Shown: positions 21,081 through 62,381 of the stretch, piece after piece
Layout: each line of letters starts with the position of its first letter
Position numbering within the stretch: the stretch's first letter is position 1
Origin: Clytia hemisphaerica
Lineage: Eukaryota > Cnidaria > Hydrozoa > Leptothecata > Clytiidae
Direction of reading: 5' to 3'
NCBI GenBank assembly: GCA_902728285.1
Contig: CACVBU010000178.1
Span: 186,001-250,000 of the forward strand
Length of the DNA stretch: 64,000 nt
Translations under genes and position numbers: made by a program
Notes under the pieces: generated by a model
What the model was told of the DNA's origin: nothing
The model's input: the letters and a program-made list of their open reading frames with translations, nothing else
Databases searched by the model: none

Positions 21081-21871
21081 CAAAGCCGCAAATCGAAAAA
21101 AGGGAGCTGGAGGACCCTCCCACATGGACGCAGAACTCTACCGTCACCTAATAAGCAGTAAAAAGTTTAAAAAGGAGAACAAGGACCTGCGTGACCAAAT
21201 AGCCAAACTTGCAAAAAAAACTAGCATCTGAGTACGTTAATCCCCATATCATTGAAACTCTAACAGCATGTAGACTAATACCACTAGACAAAAACCCTGG
21301 AGTACGCCCAATTGGAGTAGGAGAAGTTCTGAGGAGGATTGTCGGTAAATGTATAGGGTGGGTACTTAAGAACGATATTCAGGAGGCAGCAGGACCCCTT
21401 CAAGTGGCCACAGGATTAGATGCTGGAGCCGAAGCTGCCATTCATGCCATGAGGGACATTTAGGCAAATGACGAGACAGATACTAGTAGATGCAAGCAAT
21501 GCTTTTAACTCAATGAACAGGAGTGCCGCCCTACACAACATAAGAATTCATCAGTGCGTCCACAATTCGCATGTATTATTATAAACACCTACAGAATACC
21601 ATTAAACATGATAATTCGGAACGGTAGAAACATTTTCTCAGTTGAGCGAACGACACAAGGGGATAATCTAGCAATGTCATTTTACGCCCTATGGATTTCA
21701 CCGATTATAGAACATCTCAGGGAAAATACCCAAAGTTAAGAATGTATCTTTAGCAGACGACATCACAGGAGCCGGAAAGTTAGAACACCTAAAAACCTGG
21801 TGGGAAACTGTTATATCTGAGGGAGGAAAATACGGATACAATATCAATGAATCCAAAAGCTGGTTGATAAC
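21043..21871 (+). pseudogene. Reverse transcriptase gene, 5' part, split by palindromic element
   Basis: Successive plus frames encode KKGAGGPSHMDAELYRHL, then RPIGVGEVLRRIVGK and AGPLQVATGLDAGAEAAIHA. The catalytic segment follows as DASNAFNSMNR (motif A), RTTQGDNLAM and LADDITGAG (degenerate Y/F-x-DD). Frameshifts lie near 21215, 21465 and 21740. This reverse-transcriptase lineage is common in cnidarians and other invertebrates; I am unsure whether it is LINE-like or DIRS-like. The frame reaches NESKSWLIT and is cut by the element starting at 21872. Its continuation resumes at 28203. Confidence 0.75.
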
Positions 21872-21923
21872 AGTAGTAAGATATGGAGAAAGCTGGCACA
21901 TTTTTAACACCTCCAGCAATGCC

Positions 21924-22040
21924 GAAAGTGAGTGACACTACAGAAAGTGAGTGACACTACAGAAAGTGAGTGACACTACAGAAAGTGAGTACACGACAGA
22001 ACGTGATTGACACCTTACAGAAAGTAAGTGTCACCACAGA
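21924..22040. repeat. 19-bp subterminal tandem repeat, left arm
   Basis: Four to five units of AGAAAGTGAGTGACACTAC just inside the left terminus. The mirror copy lies at about 28034-28150. Confidence 0.85.
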
Positions 22041-22265
22041 ATAAGTTTTAAATGGTAAATAATTTTCTGGTTATCTATAAAAGCATTAAAGTCATTTTCC
22101 CTATCGGAAACACCCGAAAACACCGGAATTTGACCAATGAGTGTTACTAAAATTGCAACACATGGGTCAATTTCAACACCTCCAGTACTGTCAAAAGAAT
22201 AAGTTCCGAGTGGTAAATAATTTTCTGGTTATCTATTAAAGCACTGAGCTTCTTAGTCTAATTAT

Positions 22266-22532
22266 TCATAAATCATAAAAACTGAGTACATTGTTGACAA
22301 TAACACCATCACCATGTGAAAGATTTGATATATAGGTAATTTTATCAGTAACAGGAAACATATGCGAGATAGCAACAATTCTTATTAAAGAAAATAACCA
22401 AGTCTTATTTCTAATTGTAAAAGATGAATTTGGAAACTTTCGTTTTTTGAAAGTCTTCAAGGCATTTGATTGAAAATTCTTTAAGCGTTTATTAAGCTTG
22501 TACATTTTTTGAGGTAAGCAACACTGCTGCAC
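22266..22532 (-). CDS. Hypothetical 88-aa ORF, left arm
   Basis: Lysine-rich first half, then a hydrophobic stretch (LFSLIRIVAISHMF). The same ORF appears in the right arm at 27539-27805 because the arms are identical. There is no recognisable family. Conservation of the frame carries no weight, since the whole arm is duplicated. Confidence 0.3.
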   Translation of the reverse strand: MQQCCLPQKMYKLNKRLKNFQSNALKTFKKRKFPNSSFTIRNKTWLFSLIRIVAISHMFPVTDKITYISNLSHGDGVIVNNVLSFYDL

Positions 22533-23215
22533 ATGTAAAAATCGAGTCAGGTATAAACAAGTCTAGGTTGATGAATTAAGCAAATCTAAGTGAAATTCTC
22601 AAATTGGAAGAACAAAAGAACACTAAATTTGATGTTGAAAACTACTTTAATAAAGACAAGGAGGAATTTTTTATCGTAATTCAACGACCCAACATTTGAA
22701 GTCCAAAGAAAATTTGTGAAGGAGGCTCAGAGGAGTACCCAGAGTCAATTAAATTACCACTATTGTCTAGCCACTGGAAACAAGTGTTCATAGAAGATGG
22801 TTTTTCGAACTTCACGAAAGTTGTTAGTGATAGGGAATCAAACGATATTTGTAATAGTACGCTGGATGGATGGAGAAATTGAGTATATAAAGTTGGAACT
22901 CTTAGCTGATGATCGATGGATTAAAAATCTAAGATTACAAAAATTTTAGATTGTTAAATAGGGAATGAATGAAATAGTTTATTTGAGAAGAAACAAAACA
23001 ACATTGGTAACAAAATTGAACGTGGATACACCAAATAAAAGATGTGTAAACGAATGTATTTAAGTTATTACTATAATCCAAAAACCCTATGTAACACTAC
23101 TTTGAGCTAAAATCGTAGAGGCAATAAAAAGAACTGAGAAAACAAAATATTTATTGCTTGATGGTAATATATTTCTAGCTTATAAAAACAATGTTATAAT
23201 TTACAAGGTCAAATC

Positions 23216-23716
23216 TCATTCTTTCATTGCATCATTTGGAATTTGTCGATTAATTAGAAAGCGACGTTTTTCAACAGCGAAATCTAATGCTTCTTCAAAA
23301 TCCATATCTTCCTCATCTCTAACCCTTTGTAAAGTTTCCATCACAGATTTATGTGTTTTATCCTTTTTCATTGCTCGAAGAAAAAGGATTTTGTATTTAT
23401 AAATCTCATGAATTGATAAGTCAGTCTCTTGACATTCGTTCAACATGATCTCCCAAATATTAAATGTTTCTTTAACACCTTGAGATTCTTCACTATCACT
23501 GGACATGGGCTCGCTGTCTGTAAAGTCTTCATCAGACTCTTCATCTTCTTCTTCAGATTCTTCAGGGTGGGCCTTTGCAACATGTCGATTATAATTGCTT
23601 TTATTGGAAAAGGTCTTTTCGCAATCGTCGCATTCATACATCGTGTTTCTCCCGCTGGTTTTAAACTTATTTGAAGAAGTAGCATCCTTACTTACGAATT
23701 TATATGCAAAACACAA
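23216..23716 (-). CDS. C2H2 zinc-finger protein of the palindromic element, left copy
   Basis: 166 residues. One C2H2 finger at about residues 29-50 (CDDCEKTF...HVAKAH) is followed by a very acidic tract (about residues 53-80, mostly Glu/Asp/Ser). A charged helical C-terminal half follows, with no other domain. The ATG lies near the inner end of the frame and the stop toward the arm tip. The combination suggests a nucleic-acid-binding protein with an acidic interaction region. A second, identical copy is transcribed divergently in the other arm, both pointing outward from the centre. Confidence 0.7.
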   Translation of the reverse strand: MCFAYKFVSKDATSSNKFKTSGRNTMYECDDCEKTFSNKSNYNRHVAKAHPEESEEEDEESDEDFTDSEPMSSDSEESQGVKETFNIWEIMLNECQETDLSIHEIYKYKILFLRAMKKDKTHKSVMETLQRVRDEEDMDFEEALDFAVEKRRFLINRQIPNDAMKE

Positions 23717-24119
23717 GAGTAATCCGATATCGGGTTTCTCTTTAGGAGCCTGGTTTCTCTCTAAGATCTTTGTTTCTTCCAGATTTCCTAGTCTTTATTG
23801 GTCCACGTTCGTTTCTTGGTCCGGGACTAGCTTGAGAAATCTAGTCTTACTTGATCCTCTTTTGGGACTCCAGTAGTTCTTTACCTAGTCCTTGTTAGTC
23901 CCTTTTTTGAGACCAACCAATTCTTATTGGTGGCTGCAAAAAGTAATCCCTTTTTGTGTCGACATAGTCCCTTTTACCCGATTCCTGTTTCGGACTACTT
24001 AGTTTTGATAAATCGTTTTCGAAATTAGCTAAATCCTGTTTTGGATACCCTATTTAAGCTTCATGAGTTTCTAATCCTCTTTTGTATCTACATAGTCCTA
24101 GCTTAATTATCCTTAGGAT

Positions 24120-24480
24120 TAACGGGATTACCTAATCCTTCTTTGGAACTAACCAATCCTTATTTGGGATTGCCTAATCCCTCTTTGGGATCAACTAATC
24201 CTCATTTGAGATTACCTGATCCCTCTTTAGGATCAACTAATCCTCATTTAGGATTACCTAATCCCTCTTTGGGATCAACTAATCCTCATTTAGGATTACC
24301 TAATCCTTCTCTGGGATCAACTAATCCTCATTAGGGATTACCTAATCCCTCTTTAGGATCAACTACTCCTCATTTGGGATTACCTAATCCCTCTTTGGGA
24401 TCAACTAATCTTCATTTGGGATTACCTAGTCCCTCTTTGGGACCAACTAATCCTCATTTGGGGACTAGCTTGAGAAATCT
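24120..24480. repeat. 42-bp tandem repeat, left arm
   Basis: About eight units of a GGATTACCTAATCCCTCTTT-GGGATCAACTAATCCTCATTT type. One frame reads a 14-residue repeat (LGLPNPSLGSTNPH). The related words CTAATCC and TAGTCC extend diffusely from 23,740 to 24,620. Mirrored at about 25590-25950. Confidence 0.85.
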
Positions 24481-24748
24481 AGTCTTACATGATCCTCTTT
24501 TGGGACTATGTAGTTCTGCACCTAGTCCTTGTTAGTCCCTTTTTTGAGACCAACCAATCGGAACTGCGTGATTCTAGTTAATCCCTCTTTTAGGATTACT
24601 TAATCACTAGTTGGATCCTTTCTTCCAATTCATATCAAAGGCTCATGGTATGTTGTTGTTGTTGTTTCCTTTTTCTTTTCTTTTTTTTTTTTTTTTTTAC
24701 GCGTTTTTTGTTTGGTGTGGGATTTTATTATTTTGTTAGTTACACCCG

Positions 24749-24777
24749 TAAGTCCCGCCAAAGGCGGGGCTTACGCC
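24749..24777. other. GC-rich hairpin, left arm
   Basis: CGTAAGTCCCGCC-AAA-GGCGGGGCTTACG forms a 13-bp stem with a 3-base loop in otherwise AT-rich DNA. The reverse-complement copy lies at about 25294-25322. Between the two hairpins lie the ATPase fragment and the arm junctions. Confidence 0.7.
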
Positions 24778-24833
24778 CCGGGCCCCGTCAGAAGTGCAGT
24801 GAAGGTCAAATTTAGGGATAAATATAAATCCGA

Positions 24834-25193
24834 TCAACTTTGACGTTTCAAGTCATCACTTTGTGATAAACACCTTTGCAGATTGTTTTTCGATTTGTCG
24901 AACATTTCATCAAGATCGGCGGGCAAACCAATTACATATTCTACGGTTGGAAAGTAGGACTTCAACCTTTCCAAAAGATCTTCCTGATGCTTGGTGATTA
25001 ACCACACTGTTCTATCAAACTCTTTATCGAAGACATTATTTCTGTATTTGATAAGATTTTGGGCAAAAACAGATTTCTCTGCACCTCTTAAACAGCTAAC
25101 GAGTATACTAAAGGATGCTTTAGCTTTACATCCATTGTTTAAATCATAGTTTAATTTCTTAGCAGTCGTTACGACTTTTACTGCATGAACGTG
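24834..25193 (-). pseudogene. Packaging-ATPase-like fragment (Polinton type)
   Basis: An open frame of 119 codons without a proper start spans the unique centre and ends a few bases inside the left arm. It contains SFSILVSCLRGAEKSVFAQN, where a P-loop would be expected but the glycine pattern is degraded. EFDRTVWLIT and VEYVIGLPADLDEMFDKSKN follow. This resembles the A32/FtsK-HerA-type packaging ATPase of Polintons, in the region from Walker A to a segment rich in LP.DLDE. A stop precedes it and the second half of an ATPase (Walker B onward) is missing. Assignment is by motif memory only. Confidence 0.55.
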
Positions 25194-25589
25194 TTAGCTT
25201 CAAAGATGCTTATCCAGGACTTGAAACGTCAAAGTTGATCGGATTTATATTTATCCCTAAATTTGACCTTCACTGCACTTCTGACGGGGCCCGGGGCGTA
25301 AGCCCCGCCTTTGGCGGGACTTACGGGTGTAACTAACAAAATAACAAAATCCCACACCAAACAAAAAACGCGTAAAAAAAAAAAAAAAAAGAAAAGAAAA
25401 AGGAAACAACAACAACAACATACCATGAGCCTTTGATATGAATTGGAAGAAAGGATCCAACTAGTGATTAAGTAATCCTAAAAGAGGGATTAACTAGAAT
25501 CACGCAGTTCCGATTGGTTGGTCTCAAAAAAGGGACTAACAAGGACTAGGTGCAGAACTACATAGTCCCAAAAGAGGATCATGTAAGAC

Positions 25590-25950
25590 TAGATTTCTCA
25601 AGCTAGTCCCCAAATGAGGATTAGTTGGTCCCAAAGAGGGACTAGGTAATCCCAAATGAAGATTAGTTGATCCCAAAGAGGGATTAGGTAATCCCAAATG
25701 AGGAGTAGTTGATCCTAAAGAGGGATTAGGTAATCCCTAATGAGGATTAGTTGATCCCAGAGAAGGATTAGGTAATCCTAAATGAGGATTAGTTGATCCC
25801 AAAGAGGGATTAGGTAATCCTAAATGAGGATTAGTTGATCCTAAAGAGGGATCAGGTAATCTCAAATGAGGATTAGTTGATCCCAAAGAGGGATTAGGCA
25901 ATCCCAAATAAGGATTGGTTAGTTCCAAAGAAGGATTAGGTAATCCCGTT
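25590..25950. repeat. 42-bp tandem repeat, right arm
   Basis: Mirror copy of the left-arm array at 24120-24480, with the same units in reverse complement. Confidence 0.85.
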
Positions 25951-26353
25951 AATCCTAAGGATAATTAAGCTAGGACTATGTAGATACAAAAGAGGATTAG
26001 AAACTCATGAAGCTTAAATAGGGTATCCAAAACAGGATTTAGCTAATTCGAAAACGATTTATCAAAACTAAGTAGTCCGAAACAGGAATCGGGTAAAAGG
26101 GACTATGTCGACACAAAAAGGGATTACTTTTTGCAGCCACCAATAAGAATTGGTTGGTCTCAAAAAAGGGACTAACAAGGACTAGGTAAAGAACTACTGG
26201 AGTCCCAAAAGAGGATCAAGTAAGACTAGATTTCTCAAGCTAGTCCCGGACCAAGAAACGAACGTGGACCAATAAAGACTAGGAAATCTGGAAGAAACAA
26301 AGATCTTAGAGAGAAACCAGGCTCCTAAAGAGAAACCCGATATCGGATTACTC

Positions 26354-26854
26354 TTGTGTTTTGCATATAAATTCGTAAGTAAGGATGCTACTTCTTCAAA
26401 TAAGTTTAAAACCAGCGGGAGAAACACGATGTATGAATGCGACGATTGCGAAAAGACCTTTTCCAATAAAAGCAATTATAATCGACATGTTGCAAAGGCC
26501 CACCCTGAAGAATCTGAAGAAGAAGATGAAGAGTCTGATGAAGACTTTACAGACAGCGAGCCCATGTCCAGTGATAGTGAAGAATCTCAAGGTGTTAAAG
26601 AAACATTTAATATTTGGGAGATCATGTTGAACGAATGTCAAGAGACTGACTTATCAATTCATGAGATTTATAAATACAAAATCCTTTTTCTTCGAGCAAT
26701 GAAAAAGGATAAAACACATAAATCTGTGATGGAAACTTTACAAAGGGTTAGAGATGAGGAAGATATGGATTTTGAAGAAGCATTAGATTTCGCTGTTGAA
26801 AAACGTCGCTTTCTAATTAATCGACAAATTCCAAATGATGCAATGAAAGAATGA
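26354..26854 (+). CDS. C2H2 zinc-finger protein of the palindromic element, right copy
   Basis: Identical in all 166 residues to the product of 23216-23716. The single finger, the acidic tract and the helical C-terminus are all kept. The preserved frame in both arms indicates that the duplication is recent or that arm conversion continues. Confidence 0.7.
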   Translation: MCFAYKFVSKDATSSNKFKTSGRNTMYECDDCEKTFSNKSNYNRHVAKAHPEESEEEDEESDEDFTDSEPMSSDSEESQGVKETFNIWEIMLNECQETDLSIHEIYKYKILFLRAMKKDKTHKSVMETLQRVRDEEDMDFEEALDFAVEKRRFLINRQIPNDAMKE

Positions 26855-27538
26855 GATTTGACCTTGTAAATTATAACATTGTTTTTATAAGCTAGAAATA
26901 TATTACCATCAAGCAATAAATATTTTCGTTTTCTCAGTTCTTTTTATTGCCTCTACGATTTTAGCTCAAAGTAGTGTTACATAGGGTTTTTGGATTATAG
27001 TAATAACTTAAATACATTCGTTTACACATCTTTTATTTGGTGTATCCACGTTCAATTTTGTTACCAATGTTGTTTTGTTTCTTCTCAAATAAACTATTTC
27101 ATTCATTCCCTATTTAACAATCTAAAATTTTTGTAATCTTAGATTTTTAATCCATCGATCATCAGCTAAGAGTTCCAACTTTATATACTCAATTTCTCCA
27201 TCCATCCAGCGTACTATTACAAATATCGTTTGATTCCCTATCACTAACAACTTTCGTGAAGTTCGAAAAACCATCTTCTATGAACACTTGTTTCCAGTGG
27301 CTAGACAATAGTGGTAATTTAATTGACTCTGGGTACTCCTCTGAGCCTCCTTCACAAATTTTCTTTGGACTTCAAATGTTGGGTCGTTGAATTACGATAA
27401 AAAATTCCTCCTTGTCTTTATTAAAGTAGTTTTCAACATCAAATTTAGTGTTCTTTTGTTCTTCCAATTTGAGAATTTCACTTAGATTTGCTTAATTCAT
27501 CAACCTAGACTTGTTTATACCTGACTCGATTTTTACAT

Positions 27539-27805
27539 GTGCAGCAGTGTTGCTTACCTCAAAAAATGTACAAGCTTAATAAACGCTTAAAGAATTTTCA
27601 ATCAAATGCCTTGAAGACTTTCAAAAAACGAAAGTTTCCAAATTCATCTTTTACAATTAGAAATAAGACTTGGTTATTTTCTTTAATAAGAATTGTTGCT
27701 ATCTCGCATATGTTTCCTGTTACTGATAAAATTACCTATATATCAAATCTTTCACATGGTGATGGTGTTATTGTCAACAATGTACTCAGTTTTTATGATT
27801 TATGA
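27539..27805 (+). CDS. Hypothetical 88-aa ORF, right arm
   Basis: Mirror copy of 22266-22532; same uncertain status. Confidence 0.3.
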   Translation: MQQCCLPQKMYKLNKRLKNFQSNALKTFKKRKFPNSSFTIRNKTWLFSLIRIVAISHMFPVTDKITYISNLSHGDGVIVNNVLSFYDL

Positions 27806-28033
27806 ATAATTAGACTAAGAAGCTCAGTGCTTTAATAGATAACCAGAAAATTATTTACCACTCGGAACTTATTCTGTGTTGACACTTACTGGAGGTGTTG
27901 AAATTGACCCATGTGTTGCAATTTTAGTAACACTCATTGGTCAAATTCCGGTGTTTTCGGGTGTTTCCGATAGGGAAAATGACTTTAATGCTTTTATAGA
28001 TAACCAGAAAATTATTTACCATTTAAAACTTAT

Positions 28034-28150
28034 TCTGTGGTGACACTTACTTTCTGTAAGGTGTCAATCACGTTCTGTCGTGTACTCACTTTCTGTAGTG
28101 TCACTCACTTTCTGTAGTGTCACTCACTTTCTGTAGTGTCACTCACTTTC
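28034..28150. repeat. 19-bp subterminal tandem repeat, right arm
   Basis: Mirror of the array at 21924-22040, units GTAGTGTCACTCACTTTCT. Confidence 0.85.
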
Positions 28151-28202
28151 GGCATTGCTGGAGGTGTTAAAAATGTGCCAGCTTTCTCCATATCTTACTA
28201 CT

Positions 28203-28275
28203 GATAACAAAAAATCCGGATCTTCTACAACAAGCTAAGAATAGAGAACTATTAGAGAGATTACATTTGTGATTT
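28203..28275 (+). pseudogene. Reverse transcriptase gene, continuation after insertion
   Basis: Directly after the duplicated GATAAC the plus frame reads KNPDLLQQAKNRELLERLHL before a stop. It restores the frame interrupted at 21871, where SKSWLIT ends. This confirms the 21872-28202 insertion and its 6-bp duplication. Confidence 0.7.
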
Positions 28276-55688: not shown

Positions 55689-58600
55689 TTACTTTGTGGA
55701 AAGATCAATGTTTGTAGCAATCTTACCAAGACCAGTCATTATATCAGAGTCATCAGCTCTATGTATTACAACCAAACCACGTACAGCTCTCGATGTTTCA
55801 CGAAAGGACATTTTCGTTAGCATTTCTGTATTGGATGATCGCTTTTCGAGGTAAACCATCATTCGAAAGCTCCAAACTGACAACCTGACCATACGTATAT
55901 GACTGACATATAATAGAGTCGATTTTCGAAATATGATAACGTCACCAACATTGATTGAGTCATGATAAACACTTTTGTTGCTTCATAAGCTTGGGTACGT
56001 GTACGATAACCAAACTTCAAACCAGGTTTCATAGATTTTCTGGTTCTCCTTTAAAATTTTCGTCGGATTTTCACTTGTTAACATAATACCATCAGGACAT
56101 CTTTCGTTGTTTCTTCCAAGTAGAAGACGATTAGGTGTGATAAGGTCCATAACTTCAAAATCACCTGTTATGTTCCCAATTGCCAATGGAAGATTATTTA
56201 TCGTATTAGCAATGGTTGCTCCAAGGGTTTCCCACTGCATCAGCGAGAGTCGATGGTTGTGAGCATTTTTCTCTATCGAAAGGTTGATTTCCTTTATCTT
56301 CCTCTCGACCTTGCCATGGAAGTTGTGTCCTTGGACAGGACATACCTTGAAATCGATCTTCCTGTTCGTCATCAGCTGAGATTTCAGATCTCGAATGTCC
56401 AGTCTCATGTCTTTGCACCCCTTTACAAGTTGAGTACCTTCGTCACAGAGCAGTTTGGCAGGGAATCCGTGATCACATGCAAATCTCGTAAAAGCAAGCA
56501 TGAAAGCTGGTGTTGAATAATCGTCCATTAATTTGATCGAAACAGCAGACGTTGAGCAGCAACAGAAGACCACAAGCCATATCTTAACAGTCGTTCGTTT
56601 ATGTTGTGGGGAATATGACATATGTGGTCCTGAGAGATCAATTTGGGAGTGGAAGAAGGCTGGTGCGATGGTCAGGTTTGAAACTGATACTGGGCCCATT
56701 GCAATGTTAACTGTCCGCTTCATGAGGTATCGACATCTCTCACATGACTCGCGCACTTGTTTCACCAACTGCCTCCCCTCGATTATGTACGCTTTCATCA
56801 AGACAAAACGGTGAGTTGTCTCAATGCCAGAGTGTTTGACTGTTGGGTGATTCCAATGCACATCCATGACAATGCTGAATGCCACAGGTGAGTTCTTCTC
56901 CAGAATTGGCACACAGAAAGACGAACGAGTGAGATCCTTCATCACTGTTGTGAATTGACCAACGATGGATACTTCTTGCTCGGGAAGAATTCGACCGGTG
57001 TAAACAAGAATACCATCTTTTTCTCTGGAGATCTTCTGGTATTGTTGTGGTTTCAGGAAGTGTTTGACTTCTATTGTTCCTTTCCTAAAGAAATATGATT
57101 CTGCATCCTTCATCAAATCTTGACTTGGTGGCTTAGAAGAATGCTTAGATTTCCGAGTTTGATTGATGAACTTCATGACAAAGGTAAGGATTCGAATAAC
57201 CTTCTGAAAACAATGTTGATTAGGATCAATAATGTAACCTGAGAATTTGTAGCGTTTCTTGAATTCGTCTAACCATTCAGTCGTAGATAAGTGGACTTCG
57301 AATTGATTGACGGATAACTCCTTTTTGATTTCTGAGAGTTCGCTTTGTTCCAATGTGATCTCTTCAACACGCTTTGCCGGAAATTCAGACTTTGGTAGAT
57401 GCATCCATGGTTGACCATTGATCCATGGAGATTCTGGTTTGACATCATGAATTGTTGCTCCTCTTCTAGTGCCAACATCAACAACCATTTGTTTTGACCT
57501 GATATGGTACCATTGATCTTTGGTGGTGAAACGATGTATCTCGATGACTCTGCTCCTAACCCATTGTTTCAAGGTTTTCTGGTCATTTGATATCCAGTGT
57601 AGTGATATCTGGCTGTCTGTGAATTTTGTGGATGATTTGAAGAAGGATTTGAAAGAGCGACGAACAATCTCTCCTGTATGAGCATTGATCAGCGATGCCA
57701 TTAGTTCAGCACGAGGAAGTGTCAAATCTTTTGGAACCATTCGTGAACGTGCAAACACCAATTGACAAGAGAATGTTCCATCCTTTCGAAGGAATCTAGC
57801 ATAGATGCCAACACAGATAGTTGTTTGACTGGAATCACCAAAATCCAAGGTTTCAACGTCAAGTGAGACTGCATCTTCTGGGACCACAAGGCGTTTGAAT
57901 CTCAAATGATTGATTTCGGACATCATCTCAAAGTGGGATAACCAGACTGGTCTCAGTTCCTCTGGTATTGCATCATCCCAGCTGAGTTGGCGATCAGTTA
58001 ATTCTCGTAAATCAATTTTCATTGCAGCTATCAATGGGACAATCTTTCCGGTTATGTCGAATATCTCTCCAACTTTTGATAGACAGTGTCGACGTGTCAG
58101 AACATCAGGAATCAAATTGGTTGAATTGGAACTTTTCTTACCTCTACGTTTGGGCGCAAAGTTGAGATCTGGAATAGACAATGACAATTCGTCAGATTTG
58201 GAAAACCACTTCATTCCACCAACACCAACGGAAATGCCATCTTCAGTCAAATGTGATGGTGGGTTTTCTCCAGAAATTGTGATGCCTTTCAGATTGAAAG
58301 CACCTTTGGATGTTACAATTTGAAGCTCATCAGCACGTTTGTAAGCTTCTTCTTTGGTGTCAGTTCCAGTAATGCAATCATCCACATATACGTCTTTTTG
58401 GATGATTTGGTTGACTTCAGGGTACTCCTGGCTGTTCATTTCAGCAATACGTCTGAGAGCGAATTCCGATTGGTTACCACTTGATTTAATACCATAGATT
58501 AAAGTTTTGATAACTTTCTCTTTCGGAATTTTGGTAGGATCCAATTCTTCATTCCATAGGTAACGTTGCAATGTCCAATGATCTTGGTGTAGTTTGACAG

Positions 58601-58952
58601 TATTGTACATCTTGCTTACATCGCTGTGGATACCTACAGGGTGTATTTGAAATCGGATCATGAGATCTTGTAGTTTGTTGAGGTTGTTAGTTCCCTTTGC
58701 TAATATGTCGTTCAAACTGTGTCCGGATGCTGTTGGGTGAGAAGCATCAAAGACAATACGGCATGGAGTGCTGATGGATGAAGGCTTCCATACAGCTCGC
58801 CAAGGGATGAAGTTCTGGATACTGCTTAAACGCAGCATTTCTTGTTGTGAAGATGGAAGGTCTTGGACATAGGCGACAAAACCAAGGGTCTCCAACTTCT
58901 TCTCTGAAGTGATGATGTCATCCTTGTCCTGTTTGTTCTCTCTGGTTTGCAA
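55689..58952 (-). pseudogene. BEL/Pao pol: RT, RNase H, integrase
   Basis: The 989-residue frame (58952-55983) holds VWKPSSISTPCRIVFDAS, GIHSDVSKMYNTV (RT Asp 111) and DVYVDDCITG (YVDD at 189-192). An RNase H-like region follows (PRAELMASL, FTDSQISLHWI). Next come an integrase zinc module (HPTVKHSGIE ... CERCRYL) and core (QIDLSGPH, LCDEGTQLVKG, HGKVERKIKE, giving D, D, E). The frame shifts at the C-terminus, which continues at 55892-55689 with RAVRGLVVIHRADDS, the usual BEL ending. The first residues overlap the protease frame by ~127 bp, joined by a -1 shift near 58952. All catalytic motifs are kept. Confidence 0.85.
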
Positions 58953-60211
58953 AGTTTCTTGAGCTGCTGGTTGTAAACCTTTAAAGCAATGTCTTTATTT
59001 GGTGCCAATCTTGAAGGGTCTTTAATCAGTGGTAAGGTTGCAGTCACAGTGTTCGTTTTGCTATCAAAGGATACTGAGTTGTTTATGAGTTCTTGTTCAG
59101 CTTCCTCTCTGATGCTCAAATCATGAGTATGATCTGATTCCTTGCATGTCCTGCAGCTGCGACATTTCACACAACGATATGTGATTTCTGTTCCTGTGGT
59201 TTCAACTTCGTCAAAGCGTTTCAGTTTGGATGTGAAGGACAGTCTCTTCAGATCAGGGTTAATTTGTACACCCCATTTATAGAGCTTCAATTGATCGGTG
59301 AAGAAATCCATTGCTTGATCTTCACTGAAGTAGGATTGGTGGATTGCTGTAAAAATCTCATGGGGTCCTCCGATTACTCCCCTTCCACCATCATCGGCGT
59401 TCTTGAAAACAGATTCGTAGATACCCAGACCAGATGGTAGCTGATAGATTAACTTGGGATGATAACGAATATACTTCATACCTATCATCATATGGACGTC
59501 GCCACCAACCACTGGTGCAGGTTTTGGAAGAGTTGTAGAGGAGCCACTTGCGATGTGTGACTGCTTGATGTCGTTCATGACTTCGCTCAACGGGTACTGT
59601 GGAAATGTTTCTGTAATAGCATCCATGCAGATCCCACATACTGAAGCTTGTTTTCCATCAGCTAGTGGTAAGTGAATGCTGTAAATTCCATTGTTGGTTT
59701 CTGTTGATGTACCACCAACACCTCCAATACGCATGGTTCCTGATGACACTTGGGTTGCATTGTCACCAAGGAGTGAGATTGCTGATTTTTTGACGATAAA
59801 ATCACTGCATCCATTGTCATAAAATATGGTCATACGATTCTTGTTAACATTGATAGTTTGAAGTAAATAGATACCTCTGTGCTCGTCCTTCTTTGGTGTT
59901 GAAATGTTGGATGGGAAGGCAGCATGAAAGATACTGATGTCCTTTGCAAATCTTGGTAGGTTGGCACTCTTCATGTATCTGTCTTTGAAGAGTTGAAGAA
60001 CATCTTGATTTTCCTGTGAGTTTTTGTGCTCCTCACAGACCAGAACATGTTTGCGGATTGGATACTTCGCATGTGATGGATGTGGACAGGTGAATGTGCT
60101 TTGACATCTCCCATCTCTATGTCTTCCGGATGAAACATCAGCACCAGGGAACAAGCATTGGTGACAGAAGTCCTTCTTGCGAAGCAATGAATATCGATGT
60201 CCAGGTGTCAT
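58826..60211 (-). pseudogene. BEL/Pao gag zinc knuckle and protease segment
   Basis: Begins with a Cys/His cluster (FCHQCLFPG...HRDGRCQS..CPHPSHAKYP), as found between BEL gag and protease. A retropepsin-like domain follows with TIFYDNGCSDFIV, in which the active site is D-N-G rather than D-S/T-G. A CxxCRTCKESD cluster precedes the junction with the RT frame. No stop interrupts the 461 codons. Confidence 0.75.
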
Positions 60212-61590
60212 CTCGACGAACTTCTTGCAAGTGAAATATTGGATGATTGGATGAGTTGCATCTTGTTGGGTCCATTGGTTGCGATGTGGTCATCACTGCT
60301 GCGTCAGGACTGTCACAGATTGAACATGTTGGATTCGGCAGTGGACCAGAAGTGTAGGTGCTGTTTGATGATGAATTTCGATTGCCTCGATTGCCTCTTG
60401 AGTCTGAATTCTTTAGAGGTTGCTTTTTCTTGGAATCGGATGCCACTGAATTGAAGATAAGTACTTTCTGTTGTTCGAGCTGCAGTTCCTTCTCGAGAAA
60501 CTTAATGAATCTCAACCATGTTGTTTTGGGGGGGATAACGTTTCGTTGGAAATTGAGGTTAGCCATCTGGTCAATCTGGTAGTGCCAATGGTGCGATAAA
60601 TCTGGTTCAAGCCATCACCGTAGAATAAATGTTCTTCTATATTGTGTTCGACGGCAAGTTTCATCAATTCTTTGATAATATTGATAAGATTGTTGAGAGA
60701 GTTGATGAGATTGTCAGAATCTTGTTTGCGGTTGAGCGATTCATTTTCGGTGAGTGAATGTAATTTCTTTGATAAGAGTAGTTTGGTGTCACCATAAGCA
60801 GACTTCAGACGCGACCACATCTCGTCAATGTCATCTAGGGTCGTGACGAGTGACAGGGCAGCACCTTTCAGTAGATTGTTTTTCAGTAGGTCTGGAAGCA
60901 TATGATGAGGGGTTGTACGATGATAAATCTTTTCGAATGCTGTTTTGAACGAATAGATATCCATCGGACTGTCGTAGCCAGAGAATTTGTCAAGACGTAT
61001 GTTGAGTTTGGACTCATCGAAACTACGTTGTTTGTAGACATCTCTTGTGGTGAGTGAGTCATTGAGCATCTCTTGGTATTTGGCTTCTGATTTACAGAGT
61101 CCTTTATGCTGTTTGCCTATCTCGTCTAACTTATCGAGAAGTTCTGTGTCGTTGATATCTGATTGTAGTAACGTTCATACCTCTCCGAAATTTGGATGAC
61201 TGTAGTTGCTAGGGATGTCGAAGAATTTTTTCAGCTCGATGAGTTGAGCATCACTTATTGCGTCGAAATCAGGTGATAAACTGGACTTGACGAGGGCCAT
61301 ACTTTGGGTGATGGAATCAATGTTCATGTACGTTTGTACTTTGCATCATCAGAAGACTTGAGAGATCTTTCTTGACTTCGATTGAGTTGTCGTTTGTAAT
61401 TATTTGAGTTTAAGACAAACTCTTTGATGGTAGCAAGGGTCGAGTTGATGAATGATAACAGCTTGGCATCTTCTGGACTGGGATCGTCAGTGGTTTCGTC
61501 TTGGTTGAGAACGTCCAAACGATATTGACGTAATTTGAGTCGAAATTGTTCAAGTCTTTCAAGCGTTTCATCTAACTGTGGTATGGACAA
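60138..61590 (-). pseudogene. BEL/Pao gag (DUF1759-like), frameshifted
   Basis: Segments 61590-61324 (coiled-coil-like), 61069-60512 and 60566-60138 together make a gag. LDKFSGYDSPMDIYSFKTAF and LKGAALSLVTTLDDIDEMWS are typical of DUF1759 gag domains. NLNFQRNVIPPKTTWLRFIK continues in another frame. At least two frameshifts and a gap at 61070-61323 break it. Confidence 0.75.
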
Positions 61591-62381
61591 CCATCCACTT
61601 GAACTTCATCAACGATATCGGTTACTTGCTCGGACATGAGCATGACATCATTCATTACGGATGTCATTTTGGAAGAGCAATTTATGGTTCCAGCTCTGGT
61701 GGAATCGATGGAAGATACGATGTCTTTAAGTGAAGAGGAATGGTCTTCGAGTAATTGCAAAGTAGATAGTAAGGATAATTGATGTACCTCAACAGATTTG
61801 ATGATTGGTTGAAGTGTGAGTTGATCGGCTAAGGATCTTGAAGTGAGTTGATCGGCTGAGGATCTTGAAGTGAGTTGATCGGCTGAGGATCTTGAAGTGA
61901 GTTGATCAGCTGAGGATCTTGAAGTGAGTTGATCGGCTGAGGATCTTGAAGTGAGTTGATCGGCTGAGGATCTTGAAGTGAGTTGATCGACTGAGGATCT
62001 TGAAGTGAGTTGATCGGCTGAGGATCTTGAAGTGAGTTGATCGACTGAGGATCTTGAAGTGAGTTGATCAGCTGAGGATCTTGAAGTGAGTTGATCGGCT
62101 GAGGATCTTGAAGTGAGTTGATCGGCTGAGGATCTTGAAGTGAGTTGATCGACTGAGGATCGAGGGTTGACGTGATCGGCTGAGGATCGAGAGTTGACGT
62201 GATCGGCTGATGATCTTGAAGGCTGAGGGACCTTCTCTCCAGTATTGTTGAAGATACGGTAGTTGATACGAGGATTTCGTCCTCCAGACATACATACAGT
62301 GCACTTTGTTTGAATGTGCCGTGTCAGACTGCACACGAGCGGGAATGGTTTGGAACAATCAAAATATCGGTAGCATGTCAA
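61572..62381 (-). CDS. BEL/Pao 5' ORF with 9-residue repeats, 269 aa
   Basis: Starts close to the 5' LTR. The N-terminus has CSLTRHIQTKCTVC, a possible zinc-binding site. About fourteen copies of SSADQLTSR (or SSVDQLTSR) follow, then a helical C-terminus with KMTSVMNDVMLMSEQV. The coding repeat is unusual for BEL and may be a gag extension. It ends just where the 61590 gag frame begins, in a different frame. Confidence 0.6.
   Translation of the reverse strand: MTCYRYFDCSKPFPLVCSLTRHIQTKCTVCMSGGRNPRINYRIFNNTGEKVPQPSRSSADHVNSRSSADHVNPRSSVDQLTSRSSADQLTSRSSADQLTSRSSADQLTSRSSVDQLTSRSSADQLTSRSSVDQLTSRSSADQLTSRSSADQLTSRSSADQLTSRSSADQLTSRSSADQLTSRSLADQLTLQPIIKSVEVHQLSLLSTLQLLEDHSSSLKDIVSSIDSTRAGTINCSSKMTSVMNDVMLMSEQVTDIVDEVQVDGCPYHS
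61812..62212. repeat. 27-bp coding minisatellite
   Basis: About 13 units of GATCGGCTGAGGATCTTGAAGTGAGTT with G/A variation at two positions, plus two variant units with GTTGACGT at the right end. The array is in frame with the minus-strand ORF at 62381-61572. Confidence 0.95.

Follow-up and report, generated by a model that had tools for sequence, protein, structure and literature searches.

We have discovered a family of palindromic transposable elements in Clytia hemisphaerica that, to judge from its sequence, descends from Polinton (Maverick) transposons. The copy described here lies in the window, a 64,000-nt stretch of contig CACVBU010000178.1 (assembly GCA_902728285.1) whose positions serve as coordinates throughout, and consists of two inverted arms around a short single-copy centre (Table 1). 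That this window element is a non-autonomous Polinton derivative by ancestry is strongly supported by comparison with a Polinton elsewhere in the genome, which shares its end and the source of its centre. We consider it likely that the family is mobilised in trans and made symmetric again through a hairpin replication intermediate.

An earlier note on this DNA, made from its letters alone, had described a near-perfect palindrome with arms of about 2.98 kb, a 363-bp centre, AGT...ACT ends and 6-bp GATAAC target-site duplications (TSDs), and self-comparison bears this out. The element begins with AGTAGT and ends with ACTACT, and GATAAC lies immediately outside on each side. In a gapped comparison, 13 alignment columns separate the two arms: nine in one patch, three single-base insertions or deletions, and one substitution. 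Inverted repeats of 952, 885 and 675 nt are 100% identical and, because of these and the many further palindromic copies, chance is excluded. The description had to be amended in its account of the contents: the centre is the relic of an ATPase gene, each arm carries an open zinc-finger gene, and the element belongs to a family that had been missed. Besides the zinc-finger gene, the list of open reading frames (ORFs) holds no other long ORF in the window element.

The Polinton origin was traced in the 417-Mb assembly of 951 contigs (cited here by C-numbers, with examined pieces given L-numbers), where the centre and the terminal 316 bp, each used as a query, led to C308. This contig carries a Polinton with an integrase whose chromodomain lies above the Pfam cut-off and whose rve domain lies slightly below it, an A32-type ATPase with a Pox_A32 match above the cut-off, and other ORFs without a Pfam match that look capsid- and protease-like by eye. 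The right end of the C308 Polinton, which was the end compared, is 97% identical to the terminal 136 bp of the window element. The earlier note had advised searching for a full Polinton with the same ends, and the C308 Polinton, alike at its right end, was found. It had also held that relatives of the ends in an unrelated transposon superfamily would speak against its reading; the ends proved to be Polinton ends. Polintons are recognised by AGT...ACT ends and a 6-bp target duplication, and both occur in the window copy and in 16 further two-armed copies.

The centre leads to the same source. Positions 24879-25425 are 82% identical to the N-terminal part of the C308 ATPase gene and its upstream region, positions 24646-24881 are an inverted copy of the ATPase-upstream region at 79%, and the two matches meet at 24879-24881. 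Read from these matches, the comparison shows the axis to be a fold-back that joins an inverted ATPase-upstream copy to the N-terminal part of the ATPase gene. A small ATCAC-N3-GTGAT hairpin, read by eye, adjoins this point. The terminal segment and the ATPase-upstream region occur in the same order and orientation in the arm and in C308. The relic itself covers residues 9-106 of 215, with one stop and a Walker A motif that is altered by eye; it has no Pfam match above the cut-off and is not an intact A32-type packaging ATPase. Its peptide has no significant match in Pfam, PDB sequences or the protein database, and its origin came from the comparison with C308. Polymerase B, integrase and capsid genes had been reported as lost, and this agrees with the comparison: none of the genes of an autonomous Polinton (PolB, integrase, protease, capsid) was found in the window element, the half of the C308 Polinton with the integrase and capsid-like genes has no match there, and its PolB region has none among the 20 tblastx rows listed. 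A tblastx comparison of the arm middle with the last C308 ORF gave short pieces at 25-52% identity. Identical ATPases (100%) occur at four loci, C248, C308, C792 and C856, of which C308 alone was read, so a helper was probably active recently. Further ATPase genes, among them those at C224:3430234, C635:955939 and C8:129999, are 52-59% identical and probably belong to other Polinton lineages.

The earlier note had also proposed a genome search with one arm, and this search found many other copies. At least 75 matching pieces were obtained, many as inverted pairs; 40 of 382 candidates were scored, so the copy counts are lower bounds. Twenty-five copies were examined (the window and 24 further places), and 20 of them, on 19 contigs, have both arms in inverted order. 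The other five are a truncated single arm (L021), a copy at a contig end (L027) and three incompletely covered copies (L022, L025 and L028). Perfect 6-bp duplications beside AGT/ACT lie outside both arms in 17 of the 20, 16 by a script that tolerated offsets up to 60 bp and the C276 copy by eye, and all 17 six-mers are mutually different. The copies without a duplication are C553:107000 and C224 (one end beyond the piece examined) and C717. Of the 20 two-armed copies, 19 retain all or part of the single-copy centre, and because it is common to them the palindrome is an inherited design that is not remade at each site. Two copies on C553 (L013 and L014) have nearly identical right flanks and are therefore probably one insertion duplicated with its surroundings. 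At the window locus, joining the flanks at one GATAAC lets the left reading frame, reverse-transcriptase-like by eye, run on into the right. The same genome holds two empty-site paralogues, on C633 (97%) and C793 (95%), which cover positions 1-205 of the joined flanks and so reach 33 bases beyond the joint at 172. The target duplication, the frame across the joined flanks and the empty paralogues together indicate that the whole palindrome is one insertion.

Symmetry was examined in an alignment and tree of 26 arms from 13 two-armed copies of what we call family A. C553:107000 (partial arm), C780 (one-arm insertion), C717 (secondary fold-back) and four copies of family B, described below, were left out, and trimming removed about 12 bp at the inner end of some arms and 109 bp from the C38 right arm. 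The two arms of one copy were sisters in all 13 cases, with bootstrap values of 100 in 12 and 83 in one. Median divergence was 0.35% within copies (13 pairs) as against 3.2% between copies (312 pairs), and 25 of 26 arms had their sister as nearest neighbour. Most large length variants, too, are mirrored between the arms. The terminal segment with the 19-bp array ranges in length from 123 to 185, and the arms agree within 3 bp in 13/13 copies; the 21-bp array agrees within 3 bp in 11/13, the exceptions being L012 (408/437) and L023 (419/605). In C630 both arms show the same two large deletions, in C597 the same single one, and in C236 the same insertion of about 310 bp. The halves of a copy are thus mostly closer to each other than to other copies, which suggests copying via a folded hairpin.

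The main rival is that the element transposes as an ordinary inverted-repeat transposon and that its arms are equalised afterwards by gene conversion between them in the chromosome, much as the arms of sex-chromosome palindromes are kept alike. Sister arms in the tree would be expected from this as well, and the C717 copy (L019, 147000-154300) indicates that arm-to-arm copying is possible in place: its centre is lost, it has no TSD, and about 730 bp of flank lie inside the palindrome at 96% identity. C717 looks like a later fold-back within the chromosome, and its flank copies are too diverged for an assembly error. Other copies nevertheless argue against conversion. The arms of the most diverged ones have moved apart in sequence and repeat length, as in the unequal arrays of L012 and L023, and this indicates that conversion is not ongoing in all resident copies. 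In the C780 copy, about 1.2 kb of inserted DNA has stayed confined to one arm. The C276 copy, which spans 552854 to 563320 (L015, L035 and L036), all within a CAAAAT duplication identified by eye, agrees between its arms out into the outer 2 kb at 99.5% and 99.8%. Its outer part includes the family's terminal 122 bp at 99%, and an outer segment present in both arms matches the C308 Polinton at 99.8% over 523 bp. This Polinton recombinant stands in both arms inside one TSD, so symmetry preceded that insertion. We therefore regard chromosomal conversion as an unlikely source of the symmetry, albeit the best of the alternatives.

The zinc-finger gene extends the system beyond one family. A search with its protein gave at least 142 matches in the genome (150 of 318 candidates were scored), and 108 of the 142 rows were used, representing 69 places. 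Two arms of more than 2.3 kb each occur at eight places. Family B is palindromic and comprises copies on C224, C711, C797 and C471, plus one on C862 with the TSD TATGAG. Family C, on C769, is also palindromic, with the TSD TATAGT (by eye) and a self-match that crosses the axis with almost no loop; its arms hold an ORF that resembles the last C308 ORF (60% over 143 aa) as well as a stretch similar to the C308 polymerase end (54% over 48 aa, from an ORF without a Pfam match that was named by eye). A fourth family, D, at C273:1624298-1629552 (L039), has arms 98.7% identical, a diverged zinc-finger gene and a 5-bp ATATG duplication only. The position of the axis differs from family to family. The zinc-finger gene of L020, a family A copy, is nearly identical at silent sites to those of family B copies L032 and L040, with a synonymous divergence (dS) of 0.014-0.028, and the outer arms of families A and B match at only about 80-83%. 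This likeness despite diverged outer arms hints at recombination between families.

Comparison of families A or B with C or D gave ratios of nonsynonymous to synonymous divergence (dN/dS) of 0.09-0.17 at dS 0.5-2.4, by which measure the zinc-finger gene is under purifying selection. Its product probably binds DNA in the service of the element. Public protein sets contained twelve relatives, one of them distant. In a pattern search of viral contigs for the zinc-finger family, 79 stretches fit a pattern and none was confirmed. AlphaFold gave a poor model of the protein (mean predicted local distance difference test score, pLDDT, 60.6; predicted template modelling score, pTM, 0.24). C308 is without a clear counterpart of the gene and has a C2H2-like ORF (by eye, no Pfam match) at about the same place. 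About 11 loci have the gene singly and are possible source elements; on one of them, C649 (L043), it stands beside an ORF with a CKGC-like motif.

These observations are brought together in the following model. The PolB-side end of a Polinton, with PolB lost, would have been copied back on itself during replication, and the fold-back product would have kept two functional ends. Polymerase and integrase supplied in trans by Polintons could then mobilise the element, as the shared ends and the TSD suggest. In each cycle a displaced single strand would form a hairpin some 3 kb long, with its loop at the centre; before integration the arms would be made equal, either by heteroduplex repair or by self-templated synthesis along the other arm. 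The hairpin or self-primed origin is one that we infer from the homogenisation within copies, the mirrored length variants and the fold-back junction. A wider proposal, for which we see about an even chance, is that the several palindromic families are hairpin-replicating satellites of Polintons, with a conserved zinc-finger gene in each arm, dependent on Polintons, recombining with them, and rebuilt in their symmetry at each cycle. To our knowledge, Polinton replication has been inferred from genes and never observed. Arms equalised within copies speak for a cycle in which a single strand of the element may fold back on itself, and a palindromic family lets this be tested from genome data alone. 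If the hairpin-satellite proposal is true, these elements are a natural record of Polinton replication intermediates. The findings also suggest that Polintons can support satellites with a gene of their own that selection maintains. Dispersed palindromes of 6 kb should in addition influence how stable the genome is; the folded-back flank of C717 is a possible example.

Several observations weigh against Polinton descent, dependence on Polintons or renewal of symmetry through a hairpin. On the side of ancestry, the PolB pieces in C308 match DNA_pol_B_2 weakly, below the Pfam cut-off piece by piece, and the arm middle resembles C308 only weakly, in a 56-bp piece at 82%. As to dependence and selection, the comparison brought up no Polinton that carries the zinc-finger gene: at 21 ATPase loci (taken from 52 match rows after removal of palindrome centres and of further pieces from a locus already counted), none of the 108 gene pieces used from the matches listed lies within 100 kb. 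The loci with a single gene number about 11, and a few close comparisons gave dN/dS of 0.73-1.26 at dS below 0.03. As to symmetry, one arm (L012_R) is closer to another copy than to its own sister, the stretch 1080-2200 agrees within 3 bp between arms in only 8/13 copies, and an inner deletion of about 109 bp in C38 affects one arm only. Within copies, the arms differ by 235 substitutions; for 49 of these, 37 being transitions, both states occur in other copies, which may mean that some arms inserted incompletely symmetric or that mutation was recurrent. Among differences between copies the same measure gave 2,877 of 7,662. Neither extrachromosomal nor single-stranded forms were observed.

Three other explanations are far less probable than gene conversion. 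The element could be a foldback transposon that comes from an unrelated cut-and-paste superfamily and has taken up pieces of a Polinton, since its overall shape is like that of Foldback and Galileo (as portrayed in an excerpt of PMC3573991) and its arms contain tandem repeats. The ends themselves, however, are those of a Polinton over 136 bp, and the longest stop-free frame, of 192 codons, is that of the zinc-finger gene. The duplication is 6 bp as against 7 bp for Galileo, and the marks of the Foldback/Galileo P superfamily given in that excerpt (a 7-bp TSD and a P-type transposase; PMC3573991) are not those of this element; we consider capture very improbable. Slightly more doubtful still is a separate origin of each palindrome through abortive repair where it now lies, a view favoured by the C717 copy with its own axis and palindromic flank and opposed by the common centre and the duplications outside both arms. 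Finally, a read folded back on itself can give a false palindrome, such chimeras being a known assembly artefact. The earlier note had named long reads with only one arm as a refutation; judged indirectly, from the assembly, with 20 of 25 copies palindromic on 19 contigs, 17 of them with mutually different TSDs, a common centre, slightly different arms and sites without the insert in the same genome, an artefact is scarcely credible.

The features of the window element and its junctions are collected in Table 1. Elsewhere in the window, positions 55983-60289 hold long minus-strand ORFs that resemble a BEL/Pao-type retrotransposon by eye, and positions 61572-62381 hold an ORF with a repeated SRSSADQLT-like motif (about 15 units by eye).

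Table 1. Features of the palindromic Polinton derivative and its insertion site, in window positions
Feature	Position	Strand	Remarks
Left arm of palindrome	21872..24854	+	2,983 bp
Right arm of palindrome	25218..28202	-	2,985 bp
Single-copy centre, mostly decayed N-terminal part of Polinton A32-type ATPase gene	24855..25217	-	363 bp
Left TSD, GATAAC	21866..21871		Sequence and empty-site paralogues
Right TSD, GATAAC	28203..28208		
Left terminal segment	21872..22006	+	97% identity to right end of C308 Polinton
Right terminal segment	28068..28202	-	Counterpart of left segment (97% to C308 right end)
19-bp subterminal tandem repeats, left	21924..22041	+	
19-bp subterminal tandem repeats, right	28033..28150	-	
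21/42-bp tandem repeat array, left arm	24124..24462	+	
21/42-bp tandem repeat array, right arm	25609..25947	-	
C2H2 zinc-finger gene, left arm	23216..23641	-	141 aa from MYEC
C2H2 zinc-finger gene, right arm	26429..26854	+	Protein identical to that of left arm
Inverted copy of Polinton region upstream of ATPase gene	24646..24881	-	79%
Direct copy of Polinton ATPase-upstream region	25218..25425	+	Part of 82% match that includes centre
Fold-back junction	24879..24881		Inverted Polinton copy left, direct ATPase sequence right; matches overlap by about 3 bp
Patch of arm mismatch	22188..22195		Counterpart 27876-27886
Reverse-transcriptase-like relic (by eye), split by insertion	21209..21865	+	Resumes at 28209

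A search of the open full-text literature, judged mainly by titles and the starts of abstracts and with Repbase and most subscription journals outside its scope, gave no description of palindromic Polintons among the papers listed. The window element is like Polinton/Maverick elements in its AGT...ACT ends, 6-bp TSD, the terminal sequence that it has in common with C308 and the ATPase relic at its centre. Unlike them, it consists almost wholly of inverted repeat, and both of its arms contain a zinc-finger gene that did not turn up in C308. Tandem repeats of 19 bp lie near its two ends, and repeats of that length also occur within the inverted repeats of the Tlr elements of Tetrahymena. Symmetric molecules made of one duplicated end are known from the snap-back defective genomes of adenovirus and adeno-associated virus (AAV), which are protein- or hairpin-primed linear DNAs. 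Those genomes arise in infected cells, whereas the symmetric family described here is inherited and integrates. In Foldback-like elements (FB, Galileo), too, long inverted repeats that contain tandem repeats make up most of the length. The first Galileo copies were long inverted repeats alone, and the two repeats of Galileo F copies differ in tandem-repeat number (both from the excerpt of PMC3573991); here the ends and TSD length are different and the arms mostly agree in repeat length. The Tetrahymena ribosomal DNA palindrome is made from one copy via short inverted repeats, according to an excerpt of PMC5182062, and the short hairpin beside the fold-back point of the window element recalls this arrangement. 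The ribosomal palindrome, however, is a programmed somatic chromosome, whereas the window element is a transposon.

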